Shown here: one piece after another, positions 30,354-50,095 of the stretch | How the letters are laid out: each line of letters starts with the position of its first letter | Position numbering within the stretch: position 1 is the stretch's first letter | From: an uncultured Clostridia bacterium | GTDB taxonomy: Bacteria > Bacillota > Clostridia > Christensenellales > Borkfalkiaceae | Assembly: GCA_947629095.1 (NCBI GenBank) | Contig: CANRCK010000008.1 | Location: 1-57,980 of the forward strand | Length of the DNA stretch: 57,980 bases | Reading direction: 5' to 3' | Notes under the pieces: generated by a model | The model's input: only the letters and a program-made list of their open reading frames with translations | What the model was told of the DNA's origin: nothing | Databases searched by the model: none | Program-made: the position numbers and the translations under genes

Positions 30354-31881
30354 AAATCTTTATATCCTGTATCTCCGCCTCCGCGCCGTTTGAATAGAAC
30401 GCAAAGTTTGAGCCTTTCATGTCGGTTATTCTTGCCGTGAGGGCAACCTCTCCGTTGAGATAGAGGGTTATAACTTCGCCGTCGATTATAACGTCTACGC
30501 CATAGCTCTTGCCCTGCTCGAAGTTATAGGCAACCGTTGCAAGGGGTGAACCGTAGCGGAGCACGTTGGAAACGCCGTTGTAGCACGTTACGCTGCCTGC
30601 GCCAAGCTCGAATGCCATTACCGCGCTGCCGAGACGGTTGTTGTAGTCGCCGTCAAGCCCGAAGGAAAGCCCGAAATCGCCGCCGAGCGCGCCCGGTTTT
30701 ACGGTGAAGCTCATACGCGTTACGTTTTTGGAGAGCTTTTGCACGCCGTATGCGCTGAACTTGTCGCCCGTGAATTGATATTTTGAAACCTTTTCGCCAC
30801 CGACGGAATTATAAGTTACTTCGTGGCTGAAATAGTCTTTGTAGTTCTGAGGGATAACCGCGGAAAGTTCGCCCGTTTCAGCGTTCTGCTTTAACTCGTG
30901 CGTTACGAGGTTGCCGCCCCAGTCAAACCCGCCGGACGAGCCGCCCGAAAGACGCGCGCACCACGCAAAGGCGTAGAGTTTTTCGCCCGCCTTTTCCAGC
31001 CTGCCCGCATAGAAGCCGCTGGCGTCGATGCTGTCGCGCTCGAACTTATGCCATTCGGGATCATCATGGGAGGTCTTGTAGCGGTAATGGGTGACGCGGT
31101 TGTCGCCCTGTTCGCTGTAAGCAAGATAATAATATCCGTTCAGCTCTATATACGAGGGACACTCCATGTTGTAGGTGCCTTCGTCGTTTTCAAAGAAATT
31201 GTCCACATAGGTCCACTGCGCAGAGGTTGCGCTGAGCGACGTTGCCGTGTAGCGCTGGATTACCGCTATTTCGCCGGATGAATTCCTGTCGCGCGTGGTT
31301 ATGAGCATATAGTAGCAGTTATCAACGCTGTCGCGGTACACATAAGGGTCGCGGAAGTCGTTTTTGGTGTAGTCGTCCTTCGCCCCGTATATTTTGAAAT
31401 CCTCGTCCTTTTCCCACGTCTTTTGGTCCGCGCTTGTGGCGTGGCGGATAACCTCGGTGTGGGGCAGCCCCTCTTCGCCCGCCCTGTCGTTGTGACCGGT
31501 GTAGAAGGCGTGATACAGACCGTTTTCGTCCTTTATGAAGGAACCCGTGCCGAGCGCCGTGTCAACGGAGGAGACCTCCTCCTCGAAGTTCAGCGCAATG
31601 CCCTCGTCGGTGTAGTGGATGAAGTCCGTGGTAGTAACGCGCGCTATGGGGTGATAGAACATACTGTTAGTGCCGGTGCTGTTGCGGAGATGATAGATAT
31701 TCATCACTCCGTTGTCGTAGAACGGCATTACGTCGCCCATGGTTATATCCAGCCCCTCTTCGGAGGTGGAAACGGGGAAAACGTTTGCACCGTTTTGGTT
31801 AACCTCCCCTCCCGAGGCGCATGCAGTTGCACCCAAACAAATTGCCGCCGCCAATACGGGGATTGCCCACATCTTTTTCAT
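30346..31881 (-). CDS. GH32-type fructosidase lipoprotein
   Basis: This 511-residue lipoprotein (lipobox GATAC, Cys21) has a five-bladed GH32-like catalytic domain. The usual WMNDPNG is replaced by GDVMPFYDNG with the candidate nucleophile Asp50. The transition-state Asp178 sits in FRDP and the acid/base Glu240 in MECPSY. A C-terminal beta-sandwich follows from about residue 360. It should cut fructan or fructo-oligosaccharides at the cell surface. It overlaps the neighbouring genes by a few bases on both sides. The altered first blade suggests a specificity different from the classical GH32 next to it. Confidence 0.88.
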   Translation of the reverse strand: MKKMWAIPVLAAAICLGATACASGGEVNQNGANVFPVSTSEEGLDITMGDVMPFYDNGVMNIYHLRNSTGTNSMFYHPIARVTTTDFIHYTDEGIALNFEEEVSSVDTALGTGSFIKDENGLYHAFYTGHNDRAGEEGLPHTEVIRHATSADQKTWEKDEDFKIYGAKDDYTKNDFRDPYVYRDSVDNCYYMLITTRDRNSSGEIAVIQRYTATSLSATSAQWTYVDNFFENDEGTYNMECPSYIELNGYYYLAYSEQGDNRVTHYRYKTSHDDPEWHKFERDSIDASGFYAGRLEKAGEKLYAFAWCARLSGGSSGGFDWGGNLVTHELKQNAETGELSAVIPQNYKDYFSHEVTYNSVGGEKVSKYQFTGDKFSAYGVQKLSKNVTRMSFTVKPGALGGDFGLSFGLDGDYNNRLGSAVMAFELGAGSVTCYNGVSNVLRYGSPLATVAYNFEQGKSYGVDVIIDGEVITLYLNGEVALTARITDMKGSNFAFYSNGAEAEIQDIKIYE

Positions 31882-33239
31882 TGATTTTTACCTATTTCCT
31901 TTATGCGGATTTGAGATACGTTGCCATTGACTTGGATATTGTAATCTCCGTCAATGTAAATTCTGCTGCTTATTACTTCCCTGCCGCCGTCCACGAACAC
32001 CTCTATACTTGAAACGTCAAGCAATATACGGACTTCGCAGGAAGGATAACTGCGGTTTGTTCTGCGCACGCATCCGAACATATTGTTTGTGCGGTTTGTG
32101 TCCAGATATATCCCGCCGTCGTTGCCTATTATAACTTCACCGTCGGCTCCCTTTATTTTAAGTTCGCCCGCGCCGCCGAAAATGAGTCTTATGTCCGCGC
32201 ACTTGGGGACCACGCCTTGGGGGACGTCGCTAAGATACGCTTCAAGGCTATTGACCGGGGTTTGGAAAACTTCGCCCTCCCTTATGGATATCTCCCTCGG
32301 AATGGTGAACGCGCCAACCCAGCCGTGGTTCTTTTCCTGCGTGGGATACTTCCTTTCCCACATCTCCAGCCAGCCTATCATCACGGGGGTATCTATTCCC
32401 CTTATGAACTGCGGGGCGTAGAAGGAGTCGCCCTTGTCGATTTCACGGATGAAGTCGACCTTGAAGTTACCCGCCTTGAAATCGAGGTCGCCCACGATGA
32501 ATACGCTGGAATTGATATTTTTGAAGTCGTTGCCCCGGGCGGGCACATTGCAGCCCGAAACTATTATCACGTCCTTGCCGTCCACCCTGAAGTAGCAGGG
32601 GCACTCGCCCATATCGCCCAGCTCGTAGAAGGGACCTATAGTGAACGCGTAGGACAGTTTTTCGGGAGAGTCGCCGCTGAGAACTATTATGAGTCCCTTG
32701 TCCAGAGCCACGTCCTTGCCGCCCAAAAACACATAGTATGTACCGTCTATTCTTACGGGGCAGGGGTCGCGGAAGTCCGTGCGGCTGACGTTTTTGGGGA
32801 GAGTTTCGTTTTCGAAAACTTTAACGCCCTGGTCAAAGCAATAGCCGAGCGACGAGGTCGCCTTGTAAACCTCCTCCGTCTTGCCGTTTGCGTTTTCCCT
32901 GTGCAGTGTGTAAAAGGCGTGTATTTTACCGCCTATCTCTATTGCGCCGCCCGAGTAGGCGCTTGCGTCCTCCATGTCGGGTTTCAGCGCAACGCCGTCG
33001 TCGAAGTATTCAATGAGGTCGTCCGAAACGAAGTGCCCCCAAAACATCTTGCCCGGTTTGCTGGCATAGGGATTAAACTGATAATACAAGTGATATTTGC
33101 CGTTGAAATATATAAGTCCGTTGGGGTCGTTGAGCCAGCCTATCGGCGGCATCATATGATATCTTAGCCTGTATTCGTCGTTGACAGTACGTCTGGATTT
33201 TTCTATATATTTGTTTGCCGATTTGATTTTGTCCGTCAT
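31878..33239 (-). CDS. Cytoplasmic GH32 beta-fructosidase
   Basis: This 453-residue classical GH32 enzyme without a signal peptide has nucleophile Asp38 in WLNDPNG, Asp158 in FRDP and acid/base Glu212 in GECPCY. A short C-terminal sandwich includes SIEVFVDGGREVISSRIY. It should hydrolyse imported fructo-oligosaccharides or sucrose to fructose for the fructokinase downstream. No PTS component is present, so a sucrose-6-phosphate role is unlikely. Its stop is shared with the next start by a 4-bp overlap. Confidence 0.95.
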   Translation of the reverse strand: MTDKIKSANKYIEKSRRTVNDEYRLRYHMMPPIGWLNDPNGLIYFNGKYHLYYQFNPYASKPGKMFWGHFVSDDLIEYFDDGVALKPDMEDASAYSGGAIEIGGKIHAFYTLHRENANGKTEEVYKATSSLGYCFDQGVKVFENETLPKNVSRTDFRDPCPVRIDGTYYVFLGGKDVALDKGLIIVLSGDSPEKLSYAFTIGPFYELGDMGECPCYFRVDGKDVIIVSGCNVPARGNDFKNINSSVFIVGDLDFKAGNFKVDFIREIDKGDSFYAPQFIRGIDTPVMIGWLEMWERKYPTQEKNHGWVGAFTIPREISIREGEVFQTPVNSLEAYLSDVPQGVVPKCADIRLIFGGAGELKIKGADGEVIIGNDGGIYLDTNRTNNMFGCVRRTNRSYPSCEVRILLDVSSIEVFVDGGREVISSRIYIDGDYNIQVNGNVSQIRIKEIGKNQ

Positions 33240-34988
33240 TTAGGTGTCCAGTTGTCCGTTTTTAAGGCATATCCTTATGTCGCTTATCTCTATAGTGACA
33301 TTTGAATATTGCGTGTTGAACGCCGAACCGAACTGCCATGCTATTTTGTGGAGCCTGTCGGCGTCGTTTTTGTTGCACATAAAAGTGAATATTGTTTCCT
33401 CTTGGGAAAGTCTTACTTTTTGCCAGAGGATTGTGGGGTCCCAGCCGCCCGCAACGGGGATTGCAACCACCGCCTCTATGGGAGCGGTTGCCTTTGCCTT
33501 GAAGGTTAATACATAGTTGCCTCCGCTGCCCGAAACGAGGAACGAGGGGCTTTCAATCGCCGTGTCGCCGCCGTTTTCTTTAAATTCGGAAACGTTGAAC
33601 ACTATGTTTCCGTTGTTTGTGGTGCGCGTGCCGCCGTTGCAAGTGAAATCCTCTATGGCGTAGCTATCCTTGCCTGTGGAAGTGAGAACTTCAACAACGC
33701 TGAGGTCTTTAATTATGATTTCGTTAGCCTGCATTCCCGACATAACGTATAACCACAGGGAGCCTGCAAACTTTTGGGTTACGTTGAGCACTACTTCACA
33801 GTCGCCGTTTTCGTTTATGCCAGCCGGGTATACTTTATCTATCATAACCTCGTCGTCGGAGCCCCACTGCATATTCTGGAAGTGGATTTCAAACTGATCT
33901 TCCGTTCCTTCAACCCAACCTTCGGGGTGTATGCATGTGGCGTTTAAAGAAACTTTATATTGTACGCCGGCTTTGAGCGCAATGCCCGTGTTTATGAACA
34001 TTCCGCCTGCCCAAACCGTTTCGGGTTTAGTGCTGGGGTTTGTAATTTCAAGGTGAGCTTCGTTGCCGCCGTCTGCCGTCCACGTGTTGCCCACAAGCCC
34101 GTTGTTTACGGTGGGGTCGGCATTTTGCTCGGCTTCGCTGTAACCTGCCTTTGTGTCTATTCTCGACTCCACCTTGCCGCCGAACTTGAAGTTTTCGGCG
34201 CGCTCAACCTCTTTGCCGGCTTGCTGGGGATATTCTATTTCCACATTGCCTATGGTGAGGTTCATATCGCCGAGGTTGCCGAGGCAAACGTCTATGGCGA
34301 CCTCTGCCAAAGCTTCCCCGCCGGAAACGGGAGCGTGCATAAACTCTACGTTGTTTGCGCCCGCTTGCAGGTACAACTCCGCGCAGTCGGCGCCGTCGGC
34401 TTTGATTTTTATTTTGCCAGCCTTATCCGTATTGATATTATAGTGGAAAGTGCAGGGACCGCCCTCGGCGTAGTATGTGTCGCTTACGGTATAAGTGCGG
34501 CTGAGCACCACATCCTCGGCGATTACGCCGCCCGTTGCGGAGAGTTTGAACTCGCCGTTCTTCAGTCCCGCGTCCGTTATTTTTGCATTGCCGTAGGCTT
34601 CTGCCGTGAAGCCCTCGGGAAGGGCGAAAGTTTTATATGTTTCGCGGTCGACAACGTTGACGTAGGCGCGCTTGGAAGCCGTTCTACCCTTGCTGTCCGT
34701 TACGGAATAGGTTACGCTGTATTCTCCCTCTTCGGAAAAAGTTGCATAGCCGTTATTAACCTCCACTGCGGGGGATACGTTTATATCGAGCGAAGGGGTC
34801 AAGTCGCCGTCCTCATAGTCGAGCGCAGCCACGCCGTCGAGGAAATCGATCCGGCTGTTTACCATACATTGGATATCCTTTACTCCCACAACCGTGGGGG
34901 CTTTGTTGACCTCCGCGGGAGCAGCCGAACAGCCGGCAAACGTCATGGCGGCAAGCACGGATATTGCAATAAATTTAGTCTTGTTCAT
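33240..34988 (-). CDS. Surface lipoprotein with Ig-like and CBM-like domains
   Basis: This 582-residue lipoprotein (lipobox TFAGC, Cys20) carries, at residues 30-115, an Ig-like fold of the DUF5011/HYR kind (YEDGDLTPSLDINVSPAVEV, GEYSVTYSVTDSKGRTASK). Three jelly-roll domains follow that look like family 4/9 carbohydrate-binding modules; the middle one includes AGVQYKVSLNATC and GSLWLYVMSG. There are no catalytic motifs. By context it is a fructan-binding protein that holds substrate near the membrane. It overlaps the upstream YesL-like gene by 14 bp. Confidence 0.8.
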   Translation of the reverse strand: MNKTKFIAISVLAAMTFAGCSAAPAEVNKAPTVVGVKDIQCMVNSRIDFLDGVAALDYEDGDLTPSLDINVSPAVEVNNGYATFSEEGEYSVTYSVTDSKGRTASKRAYVNVVDRETYKTFALPEGFTAEAYGNAKITDAGLKNGEFKLSATGGVIAEDVVLSRTYTVSDTYYAEGGPCTFHYNINTDKAGKIKIKADGADCAELYLQAGANNVEFMHAPVSGGEALAEVAIDVCLGNLGDMNLTIGNVEIEYPQQAGKEVERAENFKFGGKVESRIDTKAGYSEAEQNADPTVNNGLVGNTWTADGGNEAHLEITNPSTKPETVWAGGMFINTGIALKAGVQYKVSLNATCIHPEGWVEGTEDQFEIHFQNMQWGSDDEVMIDKVYPAGINENGDCEVVLNVTQKFAGSLWLYVMSGMQANEIIIKDLSVVEVLTSTGKDSYAIEDFTCNGGTRTTNNGNIVFNVSEFKENGGDTAIESPSFLVSGSGGNYVLTFKAKATAPIEAVVAIPVAGGWDPTILWQKVRLSQEETIFTFMCNKNDADRLHKIAWQFGSAFNTQYSNVTIEISDIRICLKNGQLDT

Positions 34989-35680: not shown

Positions 35681-37279
35681 TTAGGCTATTGCCGCAAGAT
35701 ATCTGTCGTAAGCCGTTTGGTTGATTCTGAGCACGGTGTCGATAGACGTCCTGTTTGTGTTCAAAAGATTCTGCCACGAATCCTTTGTTGGAACGCTGCC
35801 GCCCGTTATTGCGCCGGTGAACCAGCTGGCCACGTTGTTGGAAAGTGAGGACTCGTATGTGTTGAGCATTACAAGTTCCTCCTGCGTGTAGTTGAGATTG
35901 GGAATAGAAGTTACACCCGTGTACGTGTAGGGCTTTACGTAATTTTCGAGATTTTCGAGCCTGAGCTTTGCACGGGACTCCATTTCAACCGAATTGTCCC
36001 AAACTTCCTTTGTGAGATATACAACGCCGTAGGGCGCGTTCTTCATACGGAAGTCGTCGGCGGACTGTATGCCGTGGTCGTCGTTGGGAATGAGCTTGCC
36101 GCCAACCTTTTCCGAGAGGAATGCTCCCGATTTTACGGAGCCGTAGTTGAGCTGCGCGGAATACTCCGGTTCGAAGAACTTATCGAAATAGGAGAGCAAG
36201 CCCTCTTTGTCTCCGCAGGAATCGAGTATTACGCACTCGCCCTTTTCAACTTCAAGCTCGTTGCTAACGCCCACGTAGCGGCTGCCGTCGCTGTTCTTTA
36301 AGGGAAGAACTATGATATAGTCGTCCCTCTTGTCCTTGGCTACTACCGTGTCCTTTTCCCACCAGTAGAAGGCGCCGTATCTGCCGTCCTGACCGCGGGC
36401 AAGGAAGTCGTTGTCCGTTTGGGTGAACGCCGACGAGCGGATAAGTCCGCGGCTGTACCAATCGGCAAGCTCCTTTACGGCTTCGAACCACGCTTCGTTT
36501 TCAAAGGTAAAGGTGACCTTGCCGTCCACTATGGTCTTGTGCTCCCTGTTTTCGGGAACGCCGAAGGAAGCTATAAGGTCGCTTTCGTTGCCCTGCCAAT
36601 TGCCGCTTACGAACGCAAGGGGAACGGTTTTGCCGCCGCCCGCAAAATCCTTTTCGTTGAACTTTTCCAAAATTGCCTTGAAGTCGTCTCTCGAGATATC
36701 CAAACCGTCCTTGAGCTGGTCCTTTGTGAGATTTACGCCCTTGGGCAAGTCGTTTGCGTCGATGAGCTTTTCAACCCACGCCTTGTTGAGATACAGAATA
36801 TTGGGATAGGCTTTAAGACCCATTTCCTCCACTCTGGGGAGGGAATATATGTGACCGTCGGGGGACTTTAAAGCCTCTCTTATGTCCGGGCGGGAGTCCA
36901 GAATCTTTTTGAAGTTGGGCATGCATTTATCGACATATTCGTCGATTGCCACTATCCTGCCTCTCCTGCCGTAGTCATAGAGCTTGAGATTTGAAAATCC
37001 CGAGTGATATATTGCGTCTATGCCCTTTATGGCTACGGGGTCGATATTGTTGCTGTACTGTGCGGATGTGTTGTAAGTCCAGTGTACCTCTATACCCGTG
37101 TCCTCGGCAAGCTCTTTGAAAACGGGCATTGTATTGTAGTCCTTTACGGCGTCCTCCTTTACGGTGAGCACCGTGAACTGGTGTTCGGAAGTGCCCGAGT
37201 CGGCTGACGCCACGGCAAAGGCTATGACGCACACGAACCATAGGACTGCGACCGTTATTCCGATAATCGCTTTTTTCAT
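35681..37279 (-). CDS. Extracellular sugar-binding protein of the importer
   Basis: This 532-residue solute-binding protein of the LplA/type-1 class has the hinge-lobe pattern of large oligosaccharide binders (GRRGRIVAIDEYVDKCMPNF, GHIYSLPRVEEMGLKAYPNI, ADWYSRGLI). The N-terminal membrane segment (ITVAVLWFVCVIAFAVASA) has no lipobox cysteine in the right place. The protein is either cut at AVASA or stays anchored by this helix, unlike most Gram-positive binding proteins. It lies first after the two permeases, with a GGGAGG SD. Confidence 0.9.
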   Translation of the reverse strand: MKKAIIGITVAVLWFVCVIAFAVASADSGTSEHQFTVLTVKEDAVKDYNTMPVFKELAEDTGIEVHWTYNTSAQYSNNIDPVAIKGIDAIYHSGFSNLKLYDYGRRGRIVAIDEYVDKCMPNFKKILDSRPDIREALKSPDGHIYSLPRVEEMGLKAYPNILYLNKAWVEKLIDANDLPKGVNLTKDQLKDGLDISRDDFKAILEKFNEKDFAGGGKTVPLAFVSGNWQGNESDLIASFGVPENREHKTIVDGKVTFTFENEAWFEAVKELADWYSRGLIRSSAFTQTDNDFLARGQDGRYGAFYWWEKDTVVAKDKRDDYIIVLPLKNSDGSRYVGVSNELEVEKGECVILDSCGDKEGLLSYFDKFFEPEYSAQLNYGSVKSGAFLSEKVGGKLIPNDDHGIQSADDFRMKNAPYGVVYLTKEVWDNSVEMESRAKLRLENLENYVKPYTYTGVTSIPNLNYTQEELVMLNTYESSLSNNVASWFTGAITGGSVPTKDSWQNLLNTNRTSIDTVLRINQTAYDRYLAAIA

Positions 37280-37294
37280 ACTTGCCTCCCGATA

Positions 37295-38200
37295 TTACTT
37301 GAACGAACCTACTAATACGCCCTGCCCGAAATGCTTTTCTATCATGGGATAGATTACCAAAATGGGCACCGTGGCTATTATTATAGAGGTAAATTTTATT
37401 TGTGTTGCCAGCCGCATTTGTTCGAGAACTACTTCGCCCTCGCCGCCGCCGGTGGCTTGCAAAAGCTCGTTTATGACCGTTTGCAGGGGATAGAAATTTT
37501 TGTCGATGCTGAAAATGTACGCGTCGATGTAGTTGTTCCAGTGACCTACCGCATAGAACAGAACCATTACGCTTATTATGGACTTTGCTATGGGAAGGAT
37601 AAGGTCGAAGAAGGTTCTTATTTCGCCTGCGCCGTCTATTGCCGCCGCTTCAAGAACCTCCTGCGGGACGTTGGACTGGAAGAACGATTTGCACATAAAT
37701 ACGTTATATACGCTTACGCCGCCGCCGATTATGAGAATGAGCGGGTTTTGGTAAAGCCCGAGGGCACGGCACACTATAACGTAGGGAACCAGACCGCCGC
37801 CGAAGAACATCGTTATGATGAGAAGCGCCATTATGAGCTTTCTGCACGGCAGATAGTCCCTTGAAAGCGCCCAGCCGGCGGGGATTGTGAGCGCCACGTT
37901 GAACACGGTGCCGAGCGCGGTGTATGCAAGAGTGTTGAAGTAACCCCGCCATACGTCGTCGCTCTTAAACAGGTTTACGTAGCCCGAAAATGTTACCTTT
38001 ACGGGATACAGCCAAACCTCGCCCGTCATTACGGCGTCCGCGTCCGAGATGGAAGCTATTACGATATAATAGAGAGGATAAATTACTATCACGGCAAGAA
38101 GGAACAGTATAAACCCGCAGATTGCGTAGTATACATAGTCCGTTTTGCTCTCCCTTATTTTGTTTTTCTTTTTTGCTGCTTTTAATTCCTGAGCGTCCAT
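37295..38200 (-). CDS. Sugar ABC importer permease, LplC type
   Basis: This 301-residue integral membrane subunit has six predicted helices. The EAA loop that docks the ATPase reads VLEAAAIDGAGEIRTFFDLI near residue 190. The N-terminus has the lysine-rich start usual for the MalG/LplC group. It pairs with the permease encoded just upstream and with MsmX. The operon context points to fructo-oligosaccharides as substrate. Confidence 0.94.
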   Translation of the reverse strand: MDAQELKAAKKKNKIRESKTDYVYYAICGFILFLLAVIVIYPLYYIVIASISDADAVMTGEVWLYPVKVTFSGYVNLFKSDDVWRGYFNTLAYTALGTVFNVALTIPAGWALSRDYLPCRKLIMALLIITMFFGGGLVPYVIVCRALGLYQNPLILIIGGGVSVYNVFMCKSFFQSNVPQEVLEAAAIDGAGEIRTFFDLILPIAKSIISVMVLFYAVGHWNNYIDAYIFSIDKNFYPLQTVINELLQATGGGEGEVVLEQMRLATQIKFTSIIIATVPILVIYPMIEKHFGQGVLVGSFK

Positions 38201-38215
38201 ATACCGTTACCCCGC

Positions 38216-39247
38216 TTACCACATACTGTTTCCCGAAAGTTTTTTGGAAGTGAAGTTTGCTATTATGAGCAACACTACGTTTATAACCGAGTTGAAGAGA
38301 CCCGCCGCCGTACCTACGCCGTACTGCCCGCCTATGAGACCGAAGTTGTACACGTAGGTGGATAGGATTTCACTCGTTTCGAGGTTGCCGTTGGTCTGCA
38401 TAAGGAGTACCTTTTCATATCCGCAGCTCATAAGGTTGCCCACGGAAAGTATCATAAGCATTACTATCGTGGGAAGTATTGCGGGAAGGTCCACGCTGAA
38501 TATCCTTCTGAACCGCGAAGCGCCGTCAACCTTTGCAGCCTCGTGCAGGGCGGGGTCTACGCCGGAGAGCGCGGCAAGATATATTATTGCCGACCAGCCG
38601 AAATCCTGCCAGTTGCCCGAGAAGATGAACAGGGGTCTGAACGCCTCCGCCTTTAAGAAGAGGTCTATGCCCCCGCCGCCCAAAGTCTTGCTTAAATTAT
38701 CCAAAAGACCTTCGGAGCCGAACAGGAACTTCATCATACCCACGAGAACGACGAGGGATATGAAGTGGGGCGCATAATACAGTATTTGCAGTCCCTTTTT
38801 AACCTTTTTGGGGCGCACCGAGTTGAGAAGAAGCGCTACTATTATGGGAAGCGGGAAGCCCACTATAAATCCCAAAATACACAAAAGGAACGTGTTTACA
38901 AAATAGTCCCAGAAGTTCGGATTGGAGAAGAACGTGTTAAAGTTGTTCCAGCCGACCCAAACGGTGTTGCTGCCTATTATCTGGTCGCCGGGCATATAGT
39001 CCTGGAACGCAACCAGAATGCCGTACATGGGAACGTAGCAGAAGATTATTACGTAGATGAGCGCGGGAAGAATGAATATGAGAATCCAGCCCTTGCGCTT
39101 GAAATTGTCCTTCCACTTCTGCCACTTCGTCTGCTCGTGCTTCCCGGGTGCCGCAGGTGTGCCGCCGTCCAGCGCTTCATACGCTTGCTCGACCAAATCT
39201 TCGTCGACGGCGCTCTGCGCCGCTGCCGCGGCTTCGACGTTTGCCAT
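38216..39247 (-). CDS. Sugar ABC importer permease, LplB type
   Basis: This 343-residue first permease of the importer has about 45 cytoplasmic residues followed by six helices. The EAA loop is LHEAAKVDGASRFRRIFSVD near residue 245. It is the first gene of the nine-gene fructan operon. GGGGGT precedes the ATG, and a consensus promoter with two regulator sites lies upstream. Confidence 0.94.
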   Translation of the reverse strand: MANVEAAAAAQSAVDEDLVEQAYEALDGGTPAAPGKHEQTKWQKWKDNFKRKGWILIFILPALIYVIIFCYVPMYGILVAFQDYMPGDQIIGSNTVWVGWNNFNTFFSNPNFWDYFVNTFLLCILGFIVGFPLPIIVALLLNSVRPKKVKKGLQILYYAPHFISLVVLVGMMKFLFGSEGLLDNLSKTLGGGGIDLFLKAEAFRPLFIFSGNWQDFGWSAIIYLAALSGVDPALHEAAKVDGASRFRRIFSVDLPAILPTIVMLMILSVGNLMSCGYEKVLLMQTNGNLETSEILSTYVYNFGLIGGQYGVGTAAGLFNSVINVVLLIIANFTSKKLSGNSMW

Positions 39248-39397: not shown

Positions 39398-42300
39398 TTA
39401 TTTTTTGCGGCGTTTGGAAATTACGGAGTAAACTATATATCCCACTATAGCCGTGCCGAATATTGCAAGGTCTATCCAAAGGAACACATGCGTTGCCTGT
39501 ACTATTGGCTCGGTCACCGTTTCAACGGGTTCGGATACGGTTATGGAAACTTCCGGTCTGCCCTTGTCGGTGTAGAGCTTTACAACGTGCTTGCCCGTGG
39601 AGAGTGTGCCGGAAACTTCGGGGGCGATTATTACCTTGCCGCCCTGAAGGCTGAACGCGCATTCCTTGCCGTCGACCAAAAGCTTGCTTACCGTTGCACC
39701 GCCCAGCTCAATTGCCATCTCTTCGCCGCGGTAGAACTTTTCAGCCGAAGGGGTTGCCGTTACCGCCGTGAAATCGTTTGCTACGGTAAAGTCGAATTCG
39801 GTGAAGCCCGTAACCACCCTGAATACATAGTTGCAATTTGCTTCGAGCGTCTTTAAATATGCGTCCGAAAGGGTGACCGTGCCGCCGTTAACGGCGTATT
39901 CGCCCTCCTTTAACATATAGTTGCCGTCGGTGAGGTTTATTACCTTTTCAACGCTGTAACCGCCCACGAAGATGCCGTTATCGGCGTCGGTATCGATGAA
40001 CTTTACGTTGTTTATGTGGAATTTGCCGTTGAATATGTTCAGCCCGAGCTTGCCGCCGGAATAATTTTCGATTTTATATGTGAGCGCGGCAACCTTGTCG
40101 TCGTTTATGAATATCTTTGCAACGCCCTCGTTCATGGTGACAGTTATTTTAACGGTCTTGCCCGCTTCAAAGGAGTATTGGGTCTCCTTTAAAACGTCGC
40201 CGGGCGCTCTCCAAAGCTTAACCGTTTCGTTAAAGAGGTCTGCCGTGGCTACATAGTAGGACGTGAGATTGTCGCTTACGTTGAATATGAGCGCCGCAGC
40301 CTGCGAGTTTGCATCGGTGGGCGTGAACTCCGCGGAATAAACGTAGTTTTTGCCGCTCTTATCGCTGAAACGGAAGGCGTCGCCGTTGTTTTTGAGGTAC
40401 ATACCCTCTTCACACATATATGATAAATATGAGTCCCTATCGCTATAGTTGTTATAGGGGTATTCCACGTCGCTCACCCAGCCGTTGTTGTAGATATATA
40501 TCTCTATATTCTGCGACTGCCCTTTATATGTTGCCTGCACCTTTGCGAAACCCGTGTTGAGGAGGGTTATATAGGCGATTGCGCCGTCCTGAATTATTTT
40601 TAAGTTGTTATCTGCAGCGGTGAAGGTGACTTCCGCCGGGTCGAAGTCCGCAGCGAACGAGGAGGCTATGACGGAATAGGTTTTGCCTACAACTCCGTCT
40701 ATCTTATTTGTGGTTAAAACCAAATCGCCGTCGGCGCCTTCGAATACGCCGTCAAGCGCATACACGTCGGCTTTTACGCCCATTTCGCCGTCCGCAGTAA
40801 GCTTCATTCCGTTTGAAACTGCCGAGGGGAACACTGCCGAGAACCAGCTTGCCCTGCCGCCGTTTGCAAACACGCTTATGAACGCCCTGTCAAGCAAAAT
40901 CCTGAGCGAAAGCTTGCCGTCAACCAATTGAACGCGCTTGGAATAGGGCACGGTGTAGAGCGCGGTATCCTTTGCAAGGAGGGAACTCTGCGACCTGTCG
41001 AGGGTGAGAAGCTCCTCCTCTACGTCGTAAACGAGCTTTATTTTTTCAGCCGCGGACGAGCGCAGCCACAGCTCGGCATGGCTTGCCGTGCTGCCCGTGA
41101 AGTCAAGTTCTATTTCAAGGTCCGCAACGTCGGCTTCCGCATCCCCAAGCGCGCTTTTGCCTGCGGCGAGGTTGCCCGAATACGTTGCAAGCTTTTCGCC
41201 GCGAAGTTTTTTGTATTCATCTATGGGGTTGCGGGTTAAAACGTAGCCGTCGCCCTCTTTTTGAAGCGCGAATTCGGTCACTATCGTCATTCCGCCGTTA
41301 TACGTCTTTCTTATATTTTCATACAAGCCGCAGGTCTTCCAGCTTGCCGACCAGCTTACGCCGTAAACCTTGCCGTCGGGGGCGTTGTTCCACGTCTGCA
41401 CCGCGTAGCAGTCTATGCCTTCGTTGAGCCTCGTCACCTCGCCTTCCCCAACGAAGAGTCCGTTTTCGTTTAAATCGCCCACTACGTAGTATTCTGCGGG
41501 ATAGTATGTTTCGGCACGGTTTGTGCCGTTGTATTTGTGACTGTTTACCTTATCCTCGGGGGACATCATCAAAACGTACTTCTCCGCGCCGTCAACTTCA
41601 TAGCGGGAGATGTCGGGGCACTCTCCCCAATAGCCCGTCTCGCCGAGATATTCCCATTCGAGAAGGTTTTGGGAGCTGTACATTCTTATAGAGCCGCCGC
41701 CCACTGCCATCAGCCATTTGCCGAGCTTGTCATTCCAAAAGACCTTGGGATCGCGGAATTCGCCGTCGTTCTTGCCGCCGTCCTCGCTTTGGGAAATTAT
41801 TACGCTCTTTATGGCAAAGCTCTGTCCGCCGTCCTTGCTGTATGCAAGCATCTGCTTCTGCCCTTCCGTAGGCTCGGTGAATACGGCAACAATGCCCTGA
41901 CCTTCAAGGAGCTTGCCGTCGGCGTCTACGTCAAACAGACCGCTGGTGTTGTCTTTGTCATACACCGCGCTGCCGGAGAACGCCGCTTCGAAGTTCTTGA
42001 TTGAGTCGGCGGTCTTCATGGGAAGGGGTGTTACGCTGAAATCTTCTTGCGCCCATACGTAGTCGGCTATGCCCACGGACCATGCAGACTCGTCTTTGAG
42101 GGTAGCTTCAAAGTCGTTTGCAAAAGTTACGGGCTCTGCTTCGGACGCGGTATTATCGGTAATTTCAACGGAGAACAAGCATTGGTTGGGGTCCGCTTCC
42201 TTTTGAATGAGGGCGTAGAATGTGTCGTTTTTATTCACGCTGATAACCTCATCAAGGGAAATTTCCTTGCCGTCGCCGCCCCAGAATGCCTTTCCGTCGT

Positions 42301-42838
42301 TGGCATTGATTTTGCCGTCCTCATCCTTAACCGCCCAGCGGAGGCTGAATTTGCTTGCACCGTCGGTGCCGTTTACGTGAACGTTTACTTTATATTCACC
42401 CGCGGCGGAGAACTTGTAGCTTACGGCGGTCATTGCGTTGATTTCCATCCAATCCTTTTTGACGGTCATGGGCTGCAAGCTTGCGGGAATAGCCACGGGC
42501 TGCTCCTCCCAGTGAACCAAATCTTCGCTGGTTGCGTGCCCCCAGCTCATATTGCCCCAGCCGATTTCCGTGGAATTACCGAACCTGTTGTAGTTGTACT
42601 GGTAGTACATATGCCATGTGCCGTCAACGTACAAAAGACCGTTGGGGTCGTTGTTCCAGCCGCGCTTTGCAGAAAATGCAAGACGGTTGCGGTATGCGCC
42701 GTCGTAATTATCTGCCATCTCCATTGCGCTGGCGGTTGTTGCGGACTTAAAGCCGAACGCGGCAAGCCCGAACCCGAACGCGACGAGCATTACGGCGGTG
42801 AGAATTGCAATGAGCAAGCTTTTTGTTTTTGTGTTCAT
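39398..42838 (-). CDS. Large membrane-anchored GH32 fructanase with inserted module
   Basis: This 1146-residue exported enzyme has a signal peptide at 1-38 and a GH32 catalytic domain with nucleophile Asp64 (WNNDPNG), FRDP at 361-364 and acid/base Glu406 (GECPD). The enzyme is interrupted at about residues 122-286 by a beta-sandwich insertion. That insertion lies between SEDLVHWEEQPVAIP and FSGSAVYDKDNTSG, which are adjacent in normal GH32 proteins. After the GH32 C-terminal sandwich come a Big_2-like Ig domain (about 730-805) and a LamG/CBM66-like domain (about 815-980). The protein ends with a membrane helix and KRRKK, so it is anchored at the cell surface. It should be the primary fructan depolymerase of the locus. 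Confidence 0.93.
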   Translation of the reverse strand: MNTKTKSLLIAILTAVMLVAFGFGLAAFGFKSATTASAMEMADNYDGAYRNRLAFSAKRGWNNDPNGLLYVDGTWHMYYQYNYNRFGNSTEIGWGNMSWGHATSEDLVHWEEQPVAIPASLQPMTVKKDWMEINAMTAVSYKFSAAGEYKVNVHVNGTDGASKFSLRWAVKDEDGKINANDGKAFWGGDGKEISLDEVISVNKNDTFYALIQKEADPNQCLFSVEITDNTASEAEPVTFANDFEATLKDESAWSVGIADYVWAQEDFSVTPLPMKTADSIKNFEAAFSGSAVYDKDNTSGLFDVDADGKLLEGQGIVAVFTEPTEGQKQMLAYSKDGGQSFAIKSVIISQSEDGGKNDGEFRDPKVFWNDKLGKWLMAVGGGSIRMYSSQNLLEWEYLGETGYWGECPDISRYEVDGAEKYVLMMSPEDKVNSHKYNGTNRAETYYPAEYYVVGDLNENGLFVGEGEVTRLNEGIDCYAVQTWNNAPDGKVYGVSWSASWKTCGLYENIRKTYNGGMTIVTEFALQKEGDGYVLTRNPIDEYKKLRGEKLATYSGNLAAGKSALGDAEADVADLEIELDFTGSTASHAELWLRSSAAEKIKLVYDVEEELLTLDRSQSSLLAKDTALYTVPYSKRVQLVDGKLSLRILLDRAFISVFANGGRASWFSAVFPSAVSNGMKLTADGEMGVKADVYALDGVFEGADGDLVLTTNKIDGVVGKTYSVIASSFAADFDPAEVTFTAADNNLKIIQDGAIAYITLLNTGFAKVQATYKGQSQNIEIYIYNNGWVSDVEYPYNNYSDRDSYLSYMCEEGMYLKNNGDAFRFSDKSGKNYVYSAEFTPTDANSQAAALIFNVSDNLTSYYVATADLFNETVKLWRAPGDVLKETQYSFEAGKTVKITVTMNEGVAKIFINDDKVAALTYKIENYSGGKLGLNIFNGKFHINNVKFIDTDADNGIFVGGYSVEKVINLTDGNYMLKEGEYAVNGGTVTLSDAYLKTLEANCNYVFRVVTGFTEFDFTVANDFTAVTATPSAEKFYRGEEMAIELGGATVSKLLVDGKECAFSLQGGKVIIAPEVSGTLSTGKHVVKLYTDKGRPEVSITVSEPVETVTEPIVQATHVFLWIDLAIFGTAIVGYIVYSVISKRRKK

Positions 42839-43049: not shown

Positions 43050-46000
43050 TTATGCTCTGGGCGTTATAACAAGGCTGTAATTGCACTGGTCGCCATCTAT
43101 GTCGGCGTTCCTCTCGATGAAGATATAGAATATATCTCCAGCTGCCACCGTTACGTCCGTGTCGAGCGTTACTTCGTTGCCGCCGCCTACCCACGCGGGC
43201 TTGTTGCCATCGTTTTTAACGTTGCCCTCGCTGTCGGTTATGGCCCACCTTATGTTGTACTGATTGTTGCCCGTGCCCTTTATTTGGAAATTAACGTGCG
43301 CGTTTACGGCACTGCCAAACTTGTATCTGAATGCAGCCATGCCGTTTATCGCTGCCCAGTCGCCCTTGATTTCTTTCCAGTTTTCGCCCGTGTTGTCAGT
43401 GAACGCGTCGCCGCCGTCGTTCTTGTTCGTTATCTTTGTGAACGTGAACGTCTCTTCGGGGAACTTGTAATCGACTACGCCTACTTCCCAATTCGAAGTT
43501 CCTGCAAGCGTTCCCGCAAAATCTTCGTTAAAGTTCGTTATCACGTTTTCGGGTCCGGATTGCTGCGCTTCACCCGTTATTACGAGGCTGTAGGTGCACT
43601 GGTCGCCATCTATGTCGGCGTTCCTCTCGATGAAGATATAGAATATATCTCCAGCTGCCACCGTTACGTCCGTGTCGAGCGTTACTTCGTTGCCGCCGTT
43701 TACCCACGCGGGTTGGTTGCCCTCGTTTTTAACGTTGCCTTCGCTGTCCGTTATCGCCCACCGTATGTTGTATTGATTGCTGCCTGTGCCCTTTATGTGG
43801 AAATTTACGTGCGCGTTTACAGCATTCGTAAATGTATACTTGAATCCAACCATTCCGTTGATTGCTGCCCAGTCGCCCTTGATTTCCTTCCATTTGTCGC
43901 CCGTGTTGTCCGTGAACGCGTCGCCGCCGTCATTCTTGTTCGTTATCTTCGTGAACGTGAACGTTTCGTGTTCGCCGGAACCCTCCGCAGGGAAATGATA
44001 GTCCACTACGCCGACTTCCCAATTCGAGGTGCCCGCAAGCGTTCCTTCAAATTCTGCAGCAAAGTCGGTTATTACGTTTCCCGTTGTAGGCTGTTGCGCT
44101 TTTTCGCCGTTGATGGTGATTTGCAGTTTGCCCTGCTTATAGCCGGAATCGCCCTTGGGGAAGAGTATTACGTAGATTATATCGCCCTCGGAAACATTAA
44201 CTTCGTGCGTTATGTTCCAGTCCTGCTTGCTTTCGCAATCGCCGAAGAACTCCGCGCTCTGCGTTGCATTATTTCTTACGACAAGTATGCGGGGCGCAAT
44301 TTGCGTTTCGGCGTTTGAGCCTGCAAAGTCTACGTTGACCTTTAACTTGCTTTGACCTGCGGGAACCTTGTAGCCTACTGCAAGATCCCTGCCGCCGTAT
44401 TCGCTAAGTACAAAGTCTTTTTTGATTTCCAGCCTGTTGTTGCCGTCTATCGACGTGTAGTTGTCCTCATCGTTTGCGGTAAGTTGATTGAACGTGAAGT
44501 TGTTCGTATCCCACTGATAGTCCGTGGAATAGCCGTAAACCCAAACGTCCTCGTTGCCGAAGTCCTCGTAGAAGTTGGCAATCTCCTCTTCCGCGGGAGC
44601 GGTGCCCGTGGCGGTGAGAGTCATGTTAAAGTCGCCGTGCCACCAGCCGTTGCTGCCCTCTCTTGTGAATATCACGGATATAACTCCGCCCTTTTGAACG
44701 GTAATCGTCTTGGTAAGGCTCCAGCCCTTGCTGTCTGCTTTATATATAAATTCGGGGTTATCTTTGATGCTGCCGTCGAGGTTGCCGGAAGCATCGGTTA
44801 CGTGCAGCCTTGCGGACATGCGCGTTACGTCGTTGGAGCCGTTGAACGACATTGCAACGGTTATTTCACGCGTTTCGGGCATTATATATCTTATTACAGC
44901 CATAGAGCCGTCCGTTTCGTTCATTAACCAGCCGCCCTTTATCTCTATGTTGCCGCCGTCCTTCCATGCGTCCGTGCCTACGGGCTTAGCCTTTTCAAAC
45001 GTGAAGGTGTTTGCGGCGAAATCATAATTTTTGGTGTAGCCGTACTCCCAGTTGGGTTGAGCCGTGGTGCTGAAATCCCTTGCAAAGTCCGCGCCGTTGA
45101 ACGTTGAAGGTGCAAGCTTGGGGATTTTTTCCGTCTTTGTTTCGTTGCAGCCATCGTTTTGGCAGGTGAATTTCTTTAAGCCCTCTTCCGTTTCGGTGGG
45201 TTCATTTTTCACAACACCGTCATCCCAATTGTGGGGAGTTTTTTGGATATCGCCCTCGTACGTTGCACTGCAATTGAGGCAGGAATATTTCATAACGCCC
45301 TCTTTTTGGCAGGTTGCGGGCGTTTTTACCGTGCCGCTGTCCCACAGGTGGATGCAGGGCGAAGTGAGCGTGAAGGTAAGCTCGCCGCCCGCCTTGCCGG
45401 TGCATGCCGCAGCTTTTTCAAATATAAGATAGAATACGTAGCCCTGTTTGAGATCTATAGCCTTTTGCGAAGAGTACTCCCAATCCTTTGCGCCTTTGGA
45501 ATTAAGCTCGGTCAGATAAGCGTTATCTTGGGAATCCTTTGCGGGGTTGCCCTCGGCGTCCAGAACTATGAGATGGGCGTTGAGAACGGTGCCGTCTTCC
45601 TCTCCCTTAAAGGAAATATTAACGTTGGTTTGGATCTGTTCGGGAATTACGCCGTTGAAAGAATAGGATACGACCGCTTTTTTGTCGCCCGTGGCTACGT
45701 AGCCCTTGCCTATTTCAACGTCCCCCTCTTTCCACGTGCCGCTCTGGGCGTCCGATTGGAGAATGGGGATAAATTCAATTGTGCCATCGCCCGCGTCGAA
45801 AGCTTGCGCGTAGCCGTAACCCCAGCCGTTCTGCTCGGTCAGCGTGGTATAGTACTGCTCGGCAAAGTCGGCATGAGCCGCAACAGGCTCGGTTTTGGTT
45901 GCGCCGCAGCCGTTTTGGCAGGTAAGCTTTCTTTCACCCGCGTTATAGAAGTCGGGAACTTTGCTGAGAACGCCGTCGTCCCAGCTGTGCGGCGTTTTGC

Positions 46001-46337
46001 CCACGGTCTCGGTTTTGGTTGCCGTGCAGCCTTCGTTGGTGCATTTATAGGTTTTTTCGCCCTCGGTTTTGCAGTCGGGATGCTTTGTCTCTTCGCCGTT
46101 GTCCCAGCTGTGCTCGGTGGTGCCAATGTGCCTGGTTTTGGTCTGCGTGCAGCCCTCCACCGTGCACTTATAGGTAATTTCGCCCTCGGAATGGCAGGTA
46201 GGCTCGGTTGTAACTTCGCCCTCGTCCCACTTGTGGTCGTGGTCAGCCACTCCGCCCGTGCCGCACGCGGCAAGCCCGGTTGACGCAAACATTACGGCTG
46301 CCGAAAGAATACTCAAAAACTTGAATTTCCTGTTCAT
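43050..46337 (-). CDS. Modular surface lipoprotein with five repeat domains
   Basis: This 1095-residue lipoprotein (lipobox GLAAC, Cys25) has five beta-sandwich modules of about 165 residues: 155-326, 413-578, 585-745, 754-922 and 931-1093. Each opens with a DFxxxF...W-(E/V)-x-G-Y/V pattern and ends in a ...GD-IFYIFIER...-like strand. The last two modules are nearly identical. Five short Cys/His repeats (H-x-W-D-x-G ... C-x-x-E-G ... Y-x-C ... G-C) are inserted, three at 34-150 and two at 330-405. Such repeats are common on Clostridia surface proteins. There are no catalytic motifs. The same module sits inside the GH32 fructanase next door, so I infer a fructan-binding role. I use ATG 46337, with AAGTGGGG upstream as SD. 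Confidence 0.85.
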   Translation of the reverse strand: MNRKFKFLSILSAAVMFASTGLAACGTGGVADHDHKWDEGEVTTEPTCHSEGEITYKCTVEGCTQTKTRHIGTTEHSWDNGEETKHPDCKTEGEKTYKCTNEGCTATKTETVGKTPHSWDDGVLSKVPDFYNAGERKLTCQNGCGATKTEPVAAHADFAEQYYTTLTEQNGWGYGYAQAFDAGDGTIEFIPILQSDAQSGTWKEGDVEIGKGYVATGDKKAVVSYSFNGVIPEQIQTNVNISFKGEEDGTVLNAHLIVLDAEGNPAKDSQDNAYLTELNSKGAKDWEYSSQKAIDLKQGYVFYLIFEKAAACTGKAGGELTFTLTSPCIHLWDSGTVKTPATCQKEGVMKYSCLNCSATYEGDIQKTPHNWDDGVVKNEPTETEEGLKKFTCQNDGCNETKTEKIPKLAPSTFNGADFARDFSTTAQPNWEYGYTKNYDFAANTFTFEKAKPVGTDAWKDGGNIEIKGGWLMNETDGSMAVIRYIMPETREITVAMSFNGSNDVTRMSARLHVTDASGNLDGSIKDNPEFIYKADSKGWSLTKTITVQKGGVISVIFTREGSNGWWHGDFNMTLTATGTAPAEEEIANFYEDFGNEDVWVYGYSTDYQWDTNNFTFNQLTANDEDNYTSIDGNNRLEIKKDFVLSEYGGRDLAVGYKVPAGQSKLKVNVDFAGSNAETQIAPRILVVRNNATQSAEFFGDCESKQDWNITHEVNVSEGDIIYVILFPKGDSGYKQGKLQITINGEKAQQPTTGNVITDFAAEFEGTLAGTSNWEVGVVDYHFPAEGSGEHETFTFTKITNKNDGGDAFTDNTGDKWKEIKGDWAAINGMVGFKYTFTNAVNAHVNFHIKGTGSNQYNIRWAITDSEGNVKNEGNQPAWVNGGNEVTLDTDVTVAAGDIFYIFIERNADIDGDQCTYSLVITGEAQQSGPENVITNFNEDFAGTLAGTSNWEVGVVDYKFPEETFTFTKITNKNDGGDAFTDNTGENWKEIKGDWAAINGMAAFRYKFGSAVNAHVNFQIKGTGNNQYNIRWAITDSEGNVKNDGNKPAWVGGGNEVTLDTDVTVAAGDIFYIFIERNADIDGDQCNYSLVITPRA
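43059..43547 (-). repeat. Direct repeat copy 2 (module 5 of the lipoprotein)
   Basis: This encodes residues 931-1093. It matches 43572-44078 over nearly its whole length at DNA level (for example GAAGATATAGAATATATCTC occurs in both), with an eight-residue indel near SGEHETF. The near identity indicates a recent tandem duplication. Confidence 0.85.
43572..44078 (-). repeat. Direct repeat copy 1 (module 4 of the lipoprotein)
   Basis: This encodes residues 754-922, the partner of the repeat at 43059-43547. Modules 1-3 of the same protein are clearly related in pattern but much more diverged. Confidence 0.85.
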
Positions 46338-46644: not shown

Positions 46645-47682
46645 ATGAAAAAAGCGGTTACCATAAAGGACATTGCCGAACAGCTCAACCTTTCGCGCAA
46701 TACCGTTGCAAAGGCGCTTAACGGGCAGTACGTGCCCGAAAAAACGCGGGAAGCGGTGCTTAAAAAGGCGCAGGAAATGAACTATAAATCGCTGAACGCA
46801 AGCCATATAGACATAGGCGAAAAACGCTTTAGGATTTTGCTTGTTTCGGGCAAGCCGCTGAACAATATGAACTACTTTGTGCCGATAGTTCAGGGCATTG
46901 AAAATTATTGCTACGAGCGGAACTACGAGTTTTTTCAGCATACGTTCAACGTAAACCGCACTCCTTTTTCCGTTTTTACGGACTACGTTAAGGAACTGCA
47001 CCCCGACGGGATAGTGGCAATAGAATGTTTTGACAAAGGGCTTATCGGCAAGCTGATAAATTTGGGGAAGCCGATATGCTTTGTGGATTTTACGGCGTAT
47101 GACGCGGCTTTTGAAAAGCGCTTTGACATTATATCCAACAACGACGAAAAGGCGGTGTGCGATCTTGTAAAAACGCTTTGCGCAAGATATAAACTTGCCA
47201 ACTTCACCTTTGTGGGCGACCACAGGCACTGCCTGAGCTTTTACGAACGTCACATGGGAATGTTCAGGGGCGTGCTCGGCTCCAAGGGGGCGCACTCGAG
47301 AAAGGACGATATACTCTGCAGCGACGAGAGCTTTGACTACGGCAACGCCGAGGCAATAAAAACGGAGATTTTAAAACTTAAATATAAGCCCGAGTGCTTT
47401 ATTTGCTGCAACGATTTTGTGGCGAGGAACGTTTGCAACGCCTTGAAGAGCCTTAAAATACGCGTTCCGCAGGACGCCCTTGTGGTCGGCTTTGACAACG
47501 TTTCCGAAGCTACGGCATACAGCCCGGAAATTACATCCTTTGCGGTGGATAAGGAATTTTTGGGCAGGGAGACTATGCGCACCCTTGTGCACAGGATAGA
47601 AAACCCCGGAATCCCCTCCAGAAGAATTACCGTGAGCACGGATTTGATAGAGCGGCAATCCACGCAGAGAATAGTTTTTTAA
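46645..47682 (+). CDS. LacI-family regulator of the fructan locus
   Basis: This 345-residue LacI-type regulator has an N-terminal helix-turn-helix (VTIKDIAEQLNLSRNTVAKALNG, residues 5-27), the hinge region YVPEKTREAVLKKAQEMNY, and a periplasmic-binding-type sensor domain (IVQGIENYCYERNYEFFQ, ALVVGFDNVSEATAYSPEIT). It is divergent from the modular lipoprotein gene and is the only local regulator. The paired 14-bp sites upstream of all three fructan promoters are its likely targets. Because those sites lie upstream of the -35 boxes rather than over them, activation is as likely as repression. The effector is probably fructose or a fructo-oligosaccharide. Confidence 0.92.
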   Translation: MKKAVTIKDIAEQLNLSRNTVAKALNGQYVPEKTREAVLKKAQEMNYKSLNASHIDIGEKRFRILLVSGKPLNNMNYFVPIVQGIENYCYERNYEFFQHTFNVNRTPFSVFTDYVKELHPDGIVAIECFDKGLIGKLINLGKPICFVDFTAYDAAFEKRFDIISNNDEKAVCDLVKTLCARYKLANFTFVGDHRHCLSFYERHMGMFRGVLGSKGAHSRKDDILCSDESFDYGNAEAIKTEILKLKYKPECFICCNDFVARNVCNALKSLKIRVPQDALVVGFDNVSEATAYSPEITSFAVDKEFLGRETMRTLVHRIENPGIPSRRITVSTDLIERQSTQRIVF

Positions 47683-48580: not shown

Positions 48581-49540
48581 ATGAAAAATCGCATGGACAA
48601 AAATTCGGTTATGGCGATATTTACGGCGTTCGTTTGCGCGCTGCTGTTTTTGTGTGCCTCCGCCGCCCGCCCCACAAAGGCGTATGCCGACAGTAGCTCC
48701 ATAGACGAAGAAATCACAATAAGGGCGATCAACACAGGATTGCTTGGTGGTGATACATCAGGCGATCACGAGTATGATTGGGCTGTGTTTTATCGCGGAA
48801 TAGAGCTGTTGGCGGAAGCAAAATGGAAAACGGACGACGCCGAAGGCACGGTGGAGTTTGCGGAGGGCAAAATTGTTGCCGTGTATGATTCAGTGAATAA
48901 CAAACAATTAGATACCGACGGAGATATTTTTGACACCCCTTTGGATGAGGAGCACACTCATGACTTTATCTCCGACGCCGGCAGCAGCAAATGGGAATCT
49001 ACCGATAGCGGACACTATGCCGTGTGCTATGAGTGCGGCTTGATGTTAGAGGCAACCCACCGCCCCGACGGCGATGGCGGGTGCAAGGACTGCGACGCCG
49101 CCCTTACCGGCTATGACAACACATATTCTTTTAAGATCCCCGAACCCGAAGAACTTGAAGACAAGTGGGACGGATACACAATAACTTTCGATATTGAATA
49201 TAGCGCCGATATCGTTATGGGATATACGCTGAATCTCTATTTGCAATGCTCCGGTGAGCTGAGCGAGGCTGACGCGGACGGGACTGCCATTCCTTATACC
49301 ATAGAAGTTATTCCGGATAGTTACGGCGAAGCAACTGATCCCGGTAATTGGGGTGAAAATGAATTAATTTGGTGGTATCAAACGTCCGGCGACGATAGTA
49401 AAGACGACGGTATAACAGCAGAAATTTCCGGCACAATTACCATAACACTGACAATTGAGGAAGCTATCTACCCCGGCACATATACGGATACGTTGACCTT
49501 TTCCGCAAACATTTTGGAGTACGGGAGCGAGGAGAGCTGA
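48581..49540 (+). CDS. Secreted beta-rich protein with Cys/His motif
   Basis: This 319-residue exported protein has a signal peptide ending near AYADS (about residue 37). A Cys/His segment at about 125-165 (HTHDFISDAG, HYAVCYECGLM, CKDCDAA) resembles the metal-knuckle repeats of the modular lipoprotein at 43050. The C-terminal 150 residues are beta strands and finish with YPGTYTDTLTFSANI. That last motif recurs in the 172-residue protein two genes on (YTDTLTFTV), so both may belong to one extracellular structure. I do not recognise the family. It overlaps the next gene as ATGA. Confidence 0.75.
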   Translation: MKNRMDKNSVMAIFTAFVCALLFLCASAARPTKAYADSSSIDEEITIRAINTGLLGGDTSGDHEYDWAVFYRGIELLAEAKWKTDDAEGTVEFAEGKIVAVYDSVNNKQLDTDGDIFDTPLDEEHTHDFISDAGSSKWESTDSGHYAVCYECGLMLEATHRPDGDGGCKDCDAALTGYDNTYSFKIPEPEELEDKWDGYTITFDIEYSADIVMGYTLNLYLQCSGELSEADADGTAIPYTIEVIPDSYGEATDPGNWGENELIWWYQTSGDDSKDDGITAEISGTITITLTIEEAIYPGTYTDTLTFSANILEYGSEES

Positions 49541-50043: not shown

Positions 50044-50095
50044 GTGACAACGGGCAAAACCCGTATCATAAAAAATTTTTTAAGGAGACATTAAA

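Follow-up and report, generated by a model that had tools for sequence, protein, structure and literature searches.

How does a module that otherwise stands in a tandem array come to lie inside the catalytic domain of the enzyme encoded next to it, with its two halves in exchanged order? This question is raised by contig CANRCK010000008.1 (assembly GCA_947629095.1) of an uncultured Clostridia bacterium of the Borkfalkiaceae (Christensenellales), whose positions 1 to 57,980 form the stretch analyzed here, hereafter the window. On its minus strand it encodes a fructanase of glycoside hydrolase family 32 (GH32) with 1146 residues (39398..42838) and, directly upstream, a lipoprotein (43050..46337, minus strand; lipobox LAAC read from the sequence) with five tandem modules of ~155 residues each. 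An earlier note, made from the sequence without database searches, had claimed that the catalytic domain of the fructanase contains a circularly permuted copy of such a module. Checked against the window, its coordinates were right: the enzyme is encoded at 39398-42838 (minus strand), and residues 122-281 correspond to 41996-42475.

Relation of the insert to the lipoprotein modules

The GH32 domain is indeed split: the Pfam model Glyco_hydro_32N matches the fructanase in two stretches with the insert between them, and the alignment with the solved structure of exo-inulinase 8i12 covers residues 48-119 and then resumes at residues 283-686. The first part of the propeller (residues 44-121; 42476..42709, minus strand; Pfam and 8i12 alignment) has the motif NNDPNG with D64, which we take to be the nucleophile, and the second part (residues 282-530; 41249..41995, minus strand; Pfam) has FSGSAV, FRDPK (D363) and GECPD (E406). 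All three acidic GH32 motifs, whose catalytic roles we assume from what is known of the family, and the C-terminal beta-sandwich were found, which makes the protein a GH32 member. Comparison with an empty site delimits the insertion as residues 122-281 (41996..42475, minus strand).

Within the insert, profile matches place half A (residues 126-227; 42158..42463, minus strand) at positions 50-155 of the module model and half B (residues 239-275; 42014..42124, minus strand) at positions 2-3 to 45-46. Between them, DNTASEAEPVT (residues 228-238; 42125..42157, minus strand) is the counterpart of the linker that separates modules in the arrays. A module-only profile, run over the whole genome, matched the insert twice, first with its positions 50-155 (E 3.4e-29) and next with 2-45 (E 6.0e-9); a second module alignment in the genome scan reproduced the swapped order, and a profile of 62 modules, with zero inserts among them, matched the fructanase at 50-155 first and 3-46 second. 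When restored to module order (B+A), the insert aligned to lipoprotein module 5 (43062..43535, minus strand; profile) with a score of 256, compared with a mean of 33.5 and a maximum of 63 for 500 shuffles. In enzyme order it scored 205, a value that half A reaches by itself; the score of half B by itself was 78 (shuffle maximum 41). Profile matches and shuffle-tested alignments in both orders thus bear out the exchange of halves that had been proposed. Judged by sequence comparison, the insert is a circular permutant of a lipoprotein module, and chance resemblance is excluded. Both of its ends fall in the surface loop of the module between strands 31-36 and 56-58, and the short strand 47-49 as well as most of that loop are absent from it.

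Predicted structures of module and insert

Module 5 was predicted to form a beta-sandwich with a predicted local distance difference test score (pLDDT) of 96.4. In the model of the enzyme, most blocks over the insert reached a pLDDT of 82-95, with the insert elements in permuted order; the low confidence of this model in the catalytic part is due to the alignment behind it (A5), which is shallow there. In A5, the lipoprotein pieces are each misaligned over ~14 residues at the end. Between the two predicted models, a helix and eleven strands correspond in permuted order, and the short module strand 47-49 falls in the cut loop. The models support the same secondary-structure elements in both proteins, in permuted order; differing folds were looked for, and the predicted secondary structures of insert and module agree instead. 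Fold searches singled out no single known module family, and the comparison with CBM4-like beta-sandwiches gave no clear pick.

In the propeller, the insertion falls after the final strand of blade I and ahead of the FSGS strand of blade II. By alignment, this corresponds to the residues right before about F102-S103 of exo-inulinase 1y4w, with the numbering offset judged from the residue range. Going by propeller topology, the insertion loop is presumably on the same face as a loop of endo-inulinase. The latter loop is described as widening the substrate pocket (PMC6560043). The insert would then sit on the active-site face of the propeller, and both the sequence and the predicted secondary structure suggest that its ends meet the host loop.

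Empty sites and probable origin of the insert

Insertion into one loop, as the earlier note had it, is supported by the empty site in orthologues. In the orthologue of genome G212 this site reads Q-APEGVT-F; the window's enzyme has 159 residues (123-281; window 41996-42472) between Q122 and F282. Among 93 genomes of the genus, 29 match the fructanase at E up to 0.001 and 11 have an orthologue (44-75% identity). The insert is present in two of these 11 orthologues (the window's genome, G000, and G209) and absent in nine, and two insert-free orthologues are 72-73% identical to the fructanase. Nine genomes of the genus also have a distant GH32 paralogue (25-28% identity) outside the 11 orthologues. 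Loop lengths were further compared in 133 proteins from three protein searches, from which 19 lacking a flanking motif (12 lipoproteins and 7 GH32s) were left out; the GH32 search scored the 8000 candidates sharing most words and contributed the best 120 of 569 matches. Among the matches listed, the loop between the flanking motifs has 15-27 residues in 111 of the 114 proteins and 175-176 in three (the window's enzyme, P0004 and P0007). Altogether, the insert was found in four sequences of one genus only, namely the window's enzyme, P0004, P0007 and G209. GH32 enzymes with an insert unrelated to the modules were sought, and the other three insert-bearing enzymes all have the same module.

The insert aligns ungapped over 150 residues along the junction of modules 4 and 5 of the G290 lipoprotein, linker included. 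Such an alignment along a natural junction, with the linker kept, is expected of an out-of-phase repeat unit from a tandem array and supports the origin suggested by the earlier note. The four inserts form one clade (support 100/100), which is placed in the same module subfamily as modules 4 and 5 of the resident lipoprotein. These two modules (module 4 at 43575..44066, minus strand; profile) had been named as the relatives of the insert; they are clear kin, with 34-39% identity to it, but not the closest. With moderate support (94/93), the insert clade adjoins modules 4 and 5 of G290 and module 4 of G445, which come from a different family of the order, and modules of G290, G445 and P0006 and module 3 of G209 are nearer to the insert than the resident ones by tree or score. 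Junction scores, ranked after leaving out the two top "junctions", which were the inserts themselves, tie when summed for two inserts: 663 for G290 4/5 and for G445 4/5, 662 for G570 and 659 for G290 5/6. For the window's insert alone, the best junction was G209 3/4 (324), compared with 260 for the resident 4/5 junction. A comparison with recombined halves is given no weight, as the inserts themselves dominate it too. Because other modules and junctions are closer, the resident modules 4 and 5 were dropped as donor; they are relatives, and the donor was probably not these present modules.

We consider the following course of events, taken as a whole, a fairly probable explanation. A stretch about one repeat long would have been copied out of phase from an array, comprising the second part of one module, the linker and the first part of the next. 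This stretch would have been inserted in frame where a loop connects blades I and II of the propeller, at the expense of about six residues. It could fold as a complete, circularly permuted module, because both cuts fall in one and the same surface loop, once in each of two neighboring modules, and its new ends would fit the host loop. Later, the insert-bearing segment would have been exchanged between related species by homologous recombination together with flanking catalytic DNA. The insert would most likely act as an embedded carbohydrate-binding module (CBM) and keep fructan chains close to the active-site funnel.

Apparent exchange between species

An enzyme tree calculated without the insert splits the insert-bearing enzymes: G209 and P0007 are placed with G212 and G216, which lack the insert (100/99), so that the insert as a label needs two changes on this tree. 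Around the insertion (residues 41-121 and 282-360), the informative sites join G000 with G209 in 32 cases versus 3, compared with 63 versus 116 in residues 361-1146 (Fisher p 3.9e-10, which is indicative only, because the limits were chosen after viewing the profile). Residues 1-40 are omitted from this count (2 sites for G000 with G209, 3 otherwise). The identity profile contains further mosaic patches, for example near residues 575-634. Both the tree conflict and the mosaic sites would be explained by homologous recombination in which the insert was either transferred along with its flanks or removed; apparently, the insert-bearing segment was exchanged between species.

A separate observation concerns residues about 170-201 (window 42236-42331). 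Here the insert of G000 is only 38-50% like those of G209 and P0007, and each insert is 62-79% like a different class of array module (WGGDG type vs FVGN type), hinting at an exchange of this segment with array modules after insertion. Recent gene conversion was considered as well; it is not strongly supported, as a DNA identity of 0.74-0.77 makes a recent event unlikely.

The module family and its genomic context

Searched against Pfam, neither the whole lipoprotein (best SH3_9, 19.1 bits, cut-off 30) nor the insert (best PKD, 19.1 bits, cut-off 23.5) gave anything above cut-off. Scans of 34 single modules reached at best E 0.005 in Pfam (CBM_56, one member) and E 0.0016 in NCBIfam (choice_anch_R, two members); cut-offs were given for the first member only, with no hit in Pfam and a single one, well under the cut-off, in NCBIfam. 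The insert had no sequence match to the CBM66 of the levanase SacC. The levanase CBM66 entries of the PDB (best E 1.3e-6) match residues 811-944/945, in one stretch each, and mark a CBM66-like domain of the fructanase (residues 811-945; 40004..40408, minus strand). As a discrete predicted beta-sandwich within a carbohydrate-active enzyme and outside the catalytic motifs, the insert has the domain placement of a CBM in the sense of CAZy.

By identity-based search, modules were found in 3 of 151 genomes of the family, and by profile search in 19 of 396 genomes of the order, from six families, and in 3 of 391 genomes of the class; each count includes the window's genome and each set is a sample of a larger group. 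The family thus exists both free and embedded, as the earlier note had proposed, staying under every Pfam cut-off in the window's proteins, and it also occurs fused behind a GH32 domain: in G391 (L103:6109-10977), a protein of 1623 residues has a GH32 part (63.7 bits), then module matches in native order, plus a FIVAR domain.

The neighborhood survey sought only genes resembling those of the window. From the 19 module-bearing genomes of the order scan, the loci of 18 were examined (G325, a fragment at a contig edge, was left out), and 16 have a readable neighbor, the loci of G434 and G440 ending at a contig edge. In all 16, the module gene is adjoined by a GH32-CBM66 enzyme (11) or by a CBM66-anchor protein without catalytic domain (5). 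The same importer permeases come next in 15 of the 16, the exception being G391, and a LacI regulator is on the other side wherever the sequence covers that side, again except for G391. The genus loci L043-L060 were picked through the enzyme search and stand outside the 16-locus count. At L053-L060, L094, L095, L101 and L104, the position of the GH32 enzyme is occupied by a protein of 248-382 residues with only a CBM66-like part and/or C-terminal anchor, as though a catalytic block had been lost or added. Beside the CBM66/anchor protein of L060, no module gene was detected.

The class scan revealed distant arrays in another family, with nine weak profile hits in one protein of 1727 residues (G800, L125:6120-11300) and five weak profile hits in G919 (L126:8444-11230). 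Both are near a LacI-like regulator and a gene that Pfam matches best to GH32 (100 and 107 bits); a GH43 match of 36-37 bits is also above cut-off in these enzymes, and a BT1760-like C-terminal match is below it. Assignment of the G800 array protein as AbrB-like (32 vs cut-off 25) or 4PPT_N (27.8 vs 27) came from the whole-protein pass only, with zero single stretches, and was judged spurious.

Possible role of the insert

Because GH32 and CBM66 genes adjoin the module genes, and because of the GH32 fusion in G391, fructan binding is our best guess for the function of the module; for the insert, such a role is likely.

An alternative is that the insert, homologous and permuted as it is, is a tolerated loop decoration with no binding role in the enzyme. 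Several observations favor this and weigh against binding. Most orthologues do without the insert. Between G000 and G209, the ratio of nonsynonymous to synonymous substitution rates (dN/dS) is 0.27 for the insert (0.25 for half A, 0.11 for half B) and 0.15-0.17 for the adjacent catalytic parts, which indicates weaker constraint on the insert; the ten-codon linker changes fast (3.1). Furthermore, the tryptophan of a KKDW motif is replaced by arginine in two of the four inserts. However, two lineages that are about 75% identical have retained the insert in frame and with a dN/dS well below 1, the segment that bears it was apparently exchanged by recombination, and the enzyme's own CBM66-like domain evolves at a comparable rate (0.20). 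We therefore regard mere decoration as unlikely.

The constant proximity of module lipoprotein and GH32 or CBM66-anchor gene in the 16 readable loci, and the presence of the module family in both partners here, would also suit a docking domain, with modules pairing so that the enzyme is tethered through its embedded copy to the surface lipoprotein instead of to sugar. Yet nine of the 11 genus orthologues lack the module though they too stand beside module lipoproteins, and the CBM66-like domain is already a likely link to fructan, so that we give docking a small chance. That the enzyme has the ancestral order and the lipoprotein arrays the permuted one is suggested only by the formal symmetry of permutation and is very improbable, as native-order modules are seen in six families of the order and, as distant forms, elsewhere in the class, whereas the insert was found in one genus only, with empty sites around it. 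An assembly or binning artefact, conceivable in a draft genome (85% complete, 14 contigs), is practically negligible given the insert on other contigs (P0004, P0007 and the 78,976-base contig of G209).

Going beyond the origin from an out-of-phase unit with a binding role, one may speculate that arrays are a reservoir whose units, whatever their phase, can move into loops of a neighboring enzyme. Here, a permuted fructan-binding unit would lengthen the path of the substrate at the active-site rim, would have kept exchanging segments with array modules and would have spread between gut species by recombination. We consider this wider scenario possible but doubtful.

Comparison with known systems

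Binding modules embedded in enzymes have been described before, and so has circular permutation; their combination appears to be new. For the former, PMC7848910 names CBM58 in the alpha-amylase SusG (GH13) and pairs of CBM4 in Xyn10C-type GH10 xylanases, likewise gut-bacterial polysaccharidases with a binding-type module inside the catalytic domain. The fructanase shares this SusG-type architecture, a module inserted in the catalytic domain, and its surface location is suggested by sequence features. Unlike in SusG and Xyn10C, its host domain is a GH32 propeller, the module family is unnamed and the order circularly permuted; module arrays and empty sites are also seen here, in few species. 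The fructan-binding CBM66 of the Bacillus subtilis levanase SacC, as presented in PMC6560043 and PMC13003330, is a module on GH32 enzymes and has its counterpart in the CBM66-like domain of the fructanase. In contrast to it, the insert belongs to another family and is not C-terminal. The permutant CP90 of RoCBM21 still folds and gains affinity after permutation, according to PMC3511584; it was made in the laboratory from a starch-binding domain, whereas the permutation of the insert is natural and coupled to insertion. A duplication/deletion model has been proposed for natural circular permutation (PMC3281007), and as in that model, tandem copies permit an out-of-phase unit. In our case, by contrast, the tandem array would have existed beforehand and the unit would have moved into another gene.

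A literature search of titles and the beginnings of abstracts, with most subscription papers outside its reach, returned no glycoside hydrolase that naturally contains a circularly permuted binding module and no GH32 enzyme with an embedded module. The locus presents a natural domain insertion, seen in a single genus so far, which shows how an accessory domain can get embedded in an enzyme. It also points to an undescribed module family, whose genes, wherever the loci of the scans were readable, adjoin fructan genes of gut bacteria. The route from array to embedded module is directly testable, because arrays, empty sites, linker and permutation are all readable. If binding holds true, the modules would be a new fructan-binding family and the fructanase a ready-made example of embedding a module in a propeller enzyme.

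Other features of the enzyme and the locus

The domain order of the fructanase is signal peptide, split propeller, GH32 C-terminal beta-sandwich (residues 541-686; 40781..41218, minus strand; Pfam), CBM66-like domain and C-terminal membrane segment; signal peptide and membrane segment were read from the sequence, and the surface location rests on them. Downstream, genes for an ATP-binding cassette (ABC) importer follow on the same strand (35681..39247), encoding two permeases and a solute-binding protein (match of 20.3 bits, under the cut-off of 27), as well as a second GH32 enzyme of 453 residues without module or evident signal peptide (31878..33239, minus strand). A second lipoprotein with a sub-threshold Ig-like match is encoded at window 33240-34988; it occurs in most related loci and varies more than the importer genes. 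On the plus strand, the divergent LacI-family regulator (46645..47682) has the same place in most related loci, and three small genes at window 48581-50614, the first and third without Pfam match, have starts like those of secreted proteins.

The remaining modules of the lipoprotein, identified by profile, lie on the minus strand at 45363..45872 (module 1), 44613..45092 (module 2) and 44112..44579 (module 3). Its N-terminus (residues about 30-150; window 45888-46250) contains cysteine-rich repeats of the form PTC..EGE.TYKC...C, which appear again between modules 1 and 2 and look like small metal-binding or knot-like spacers.

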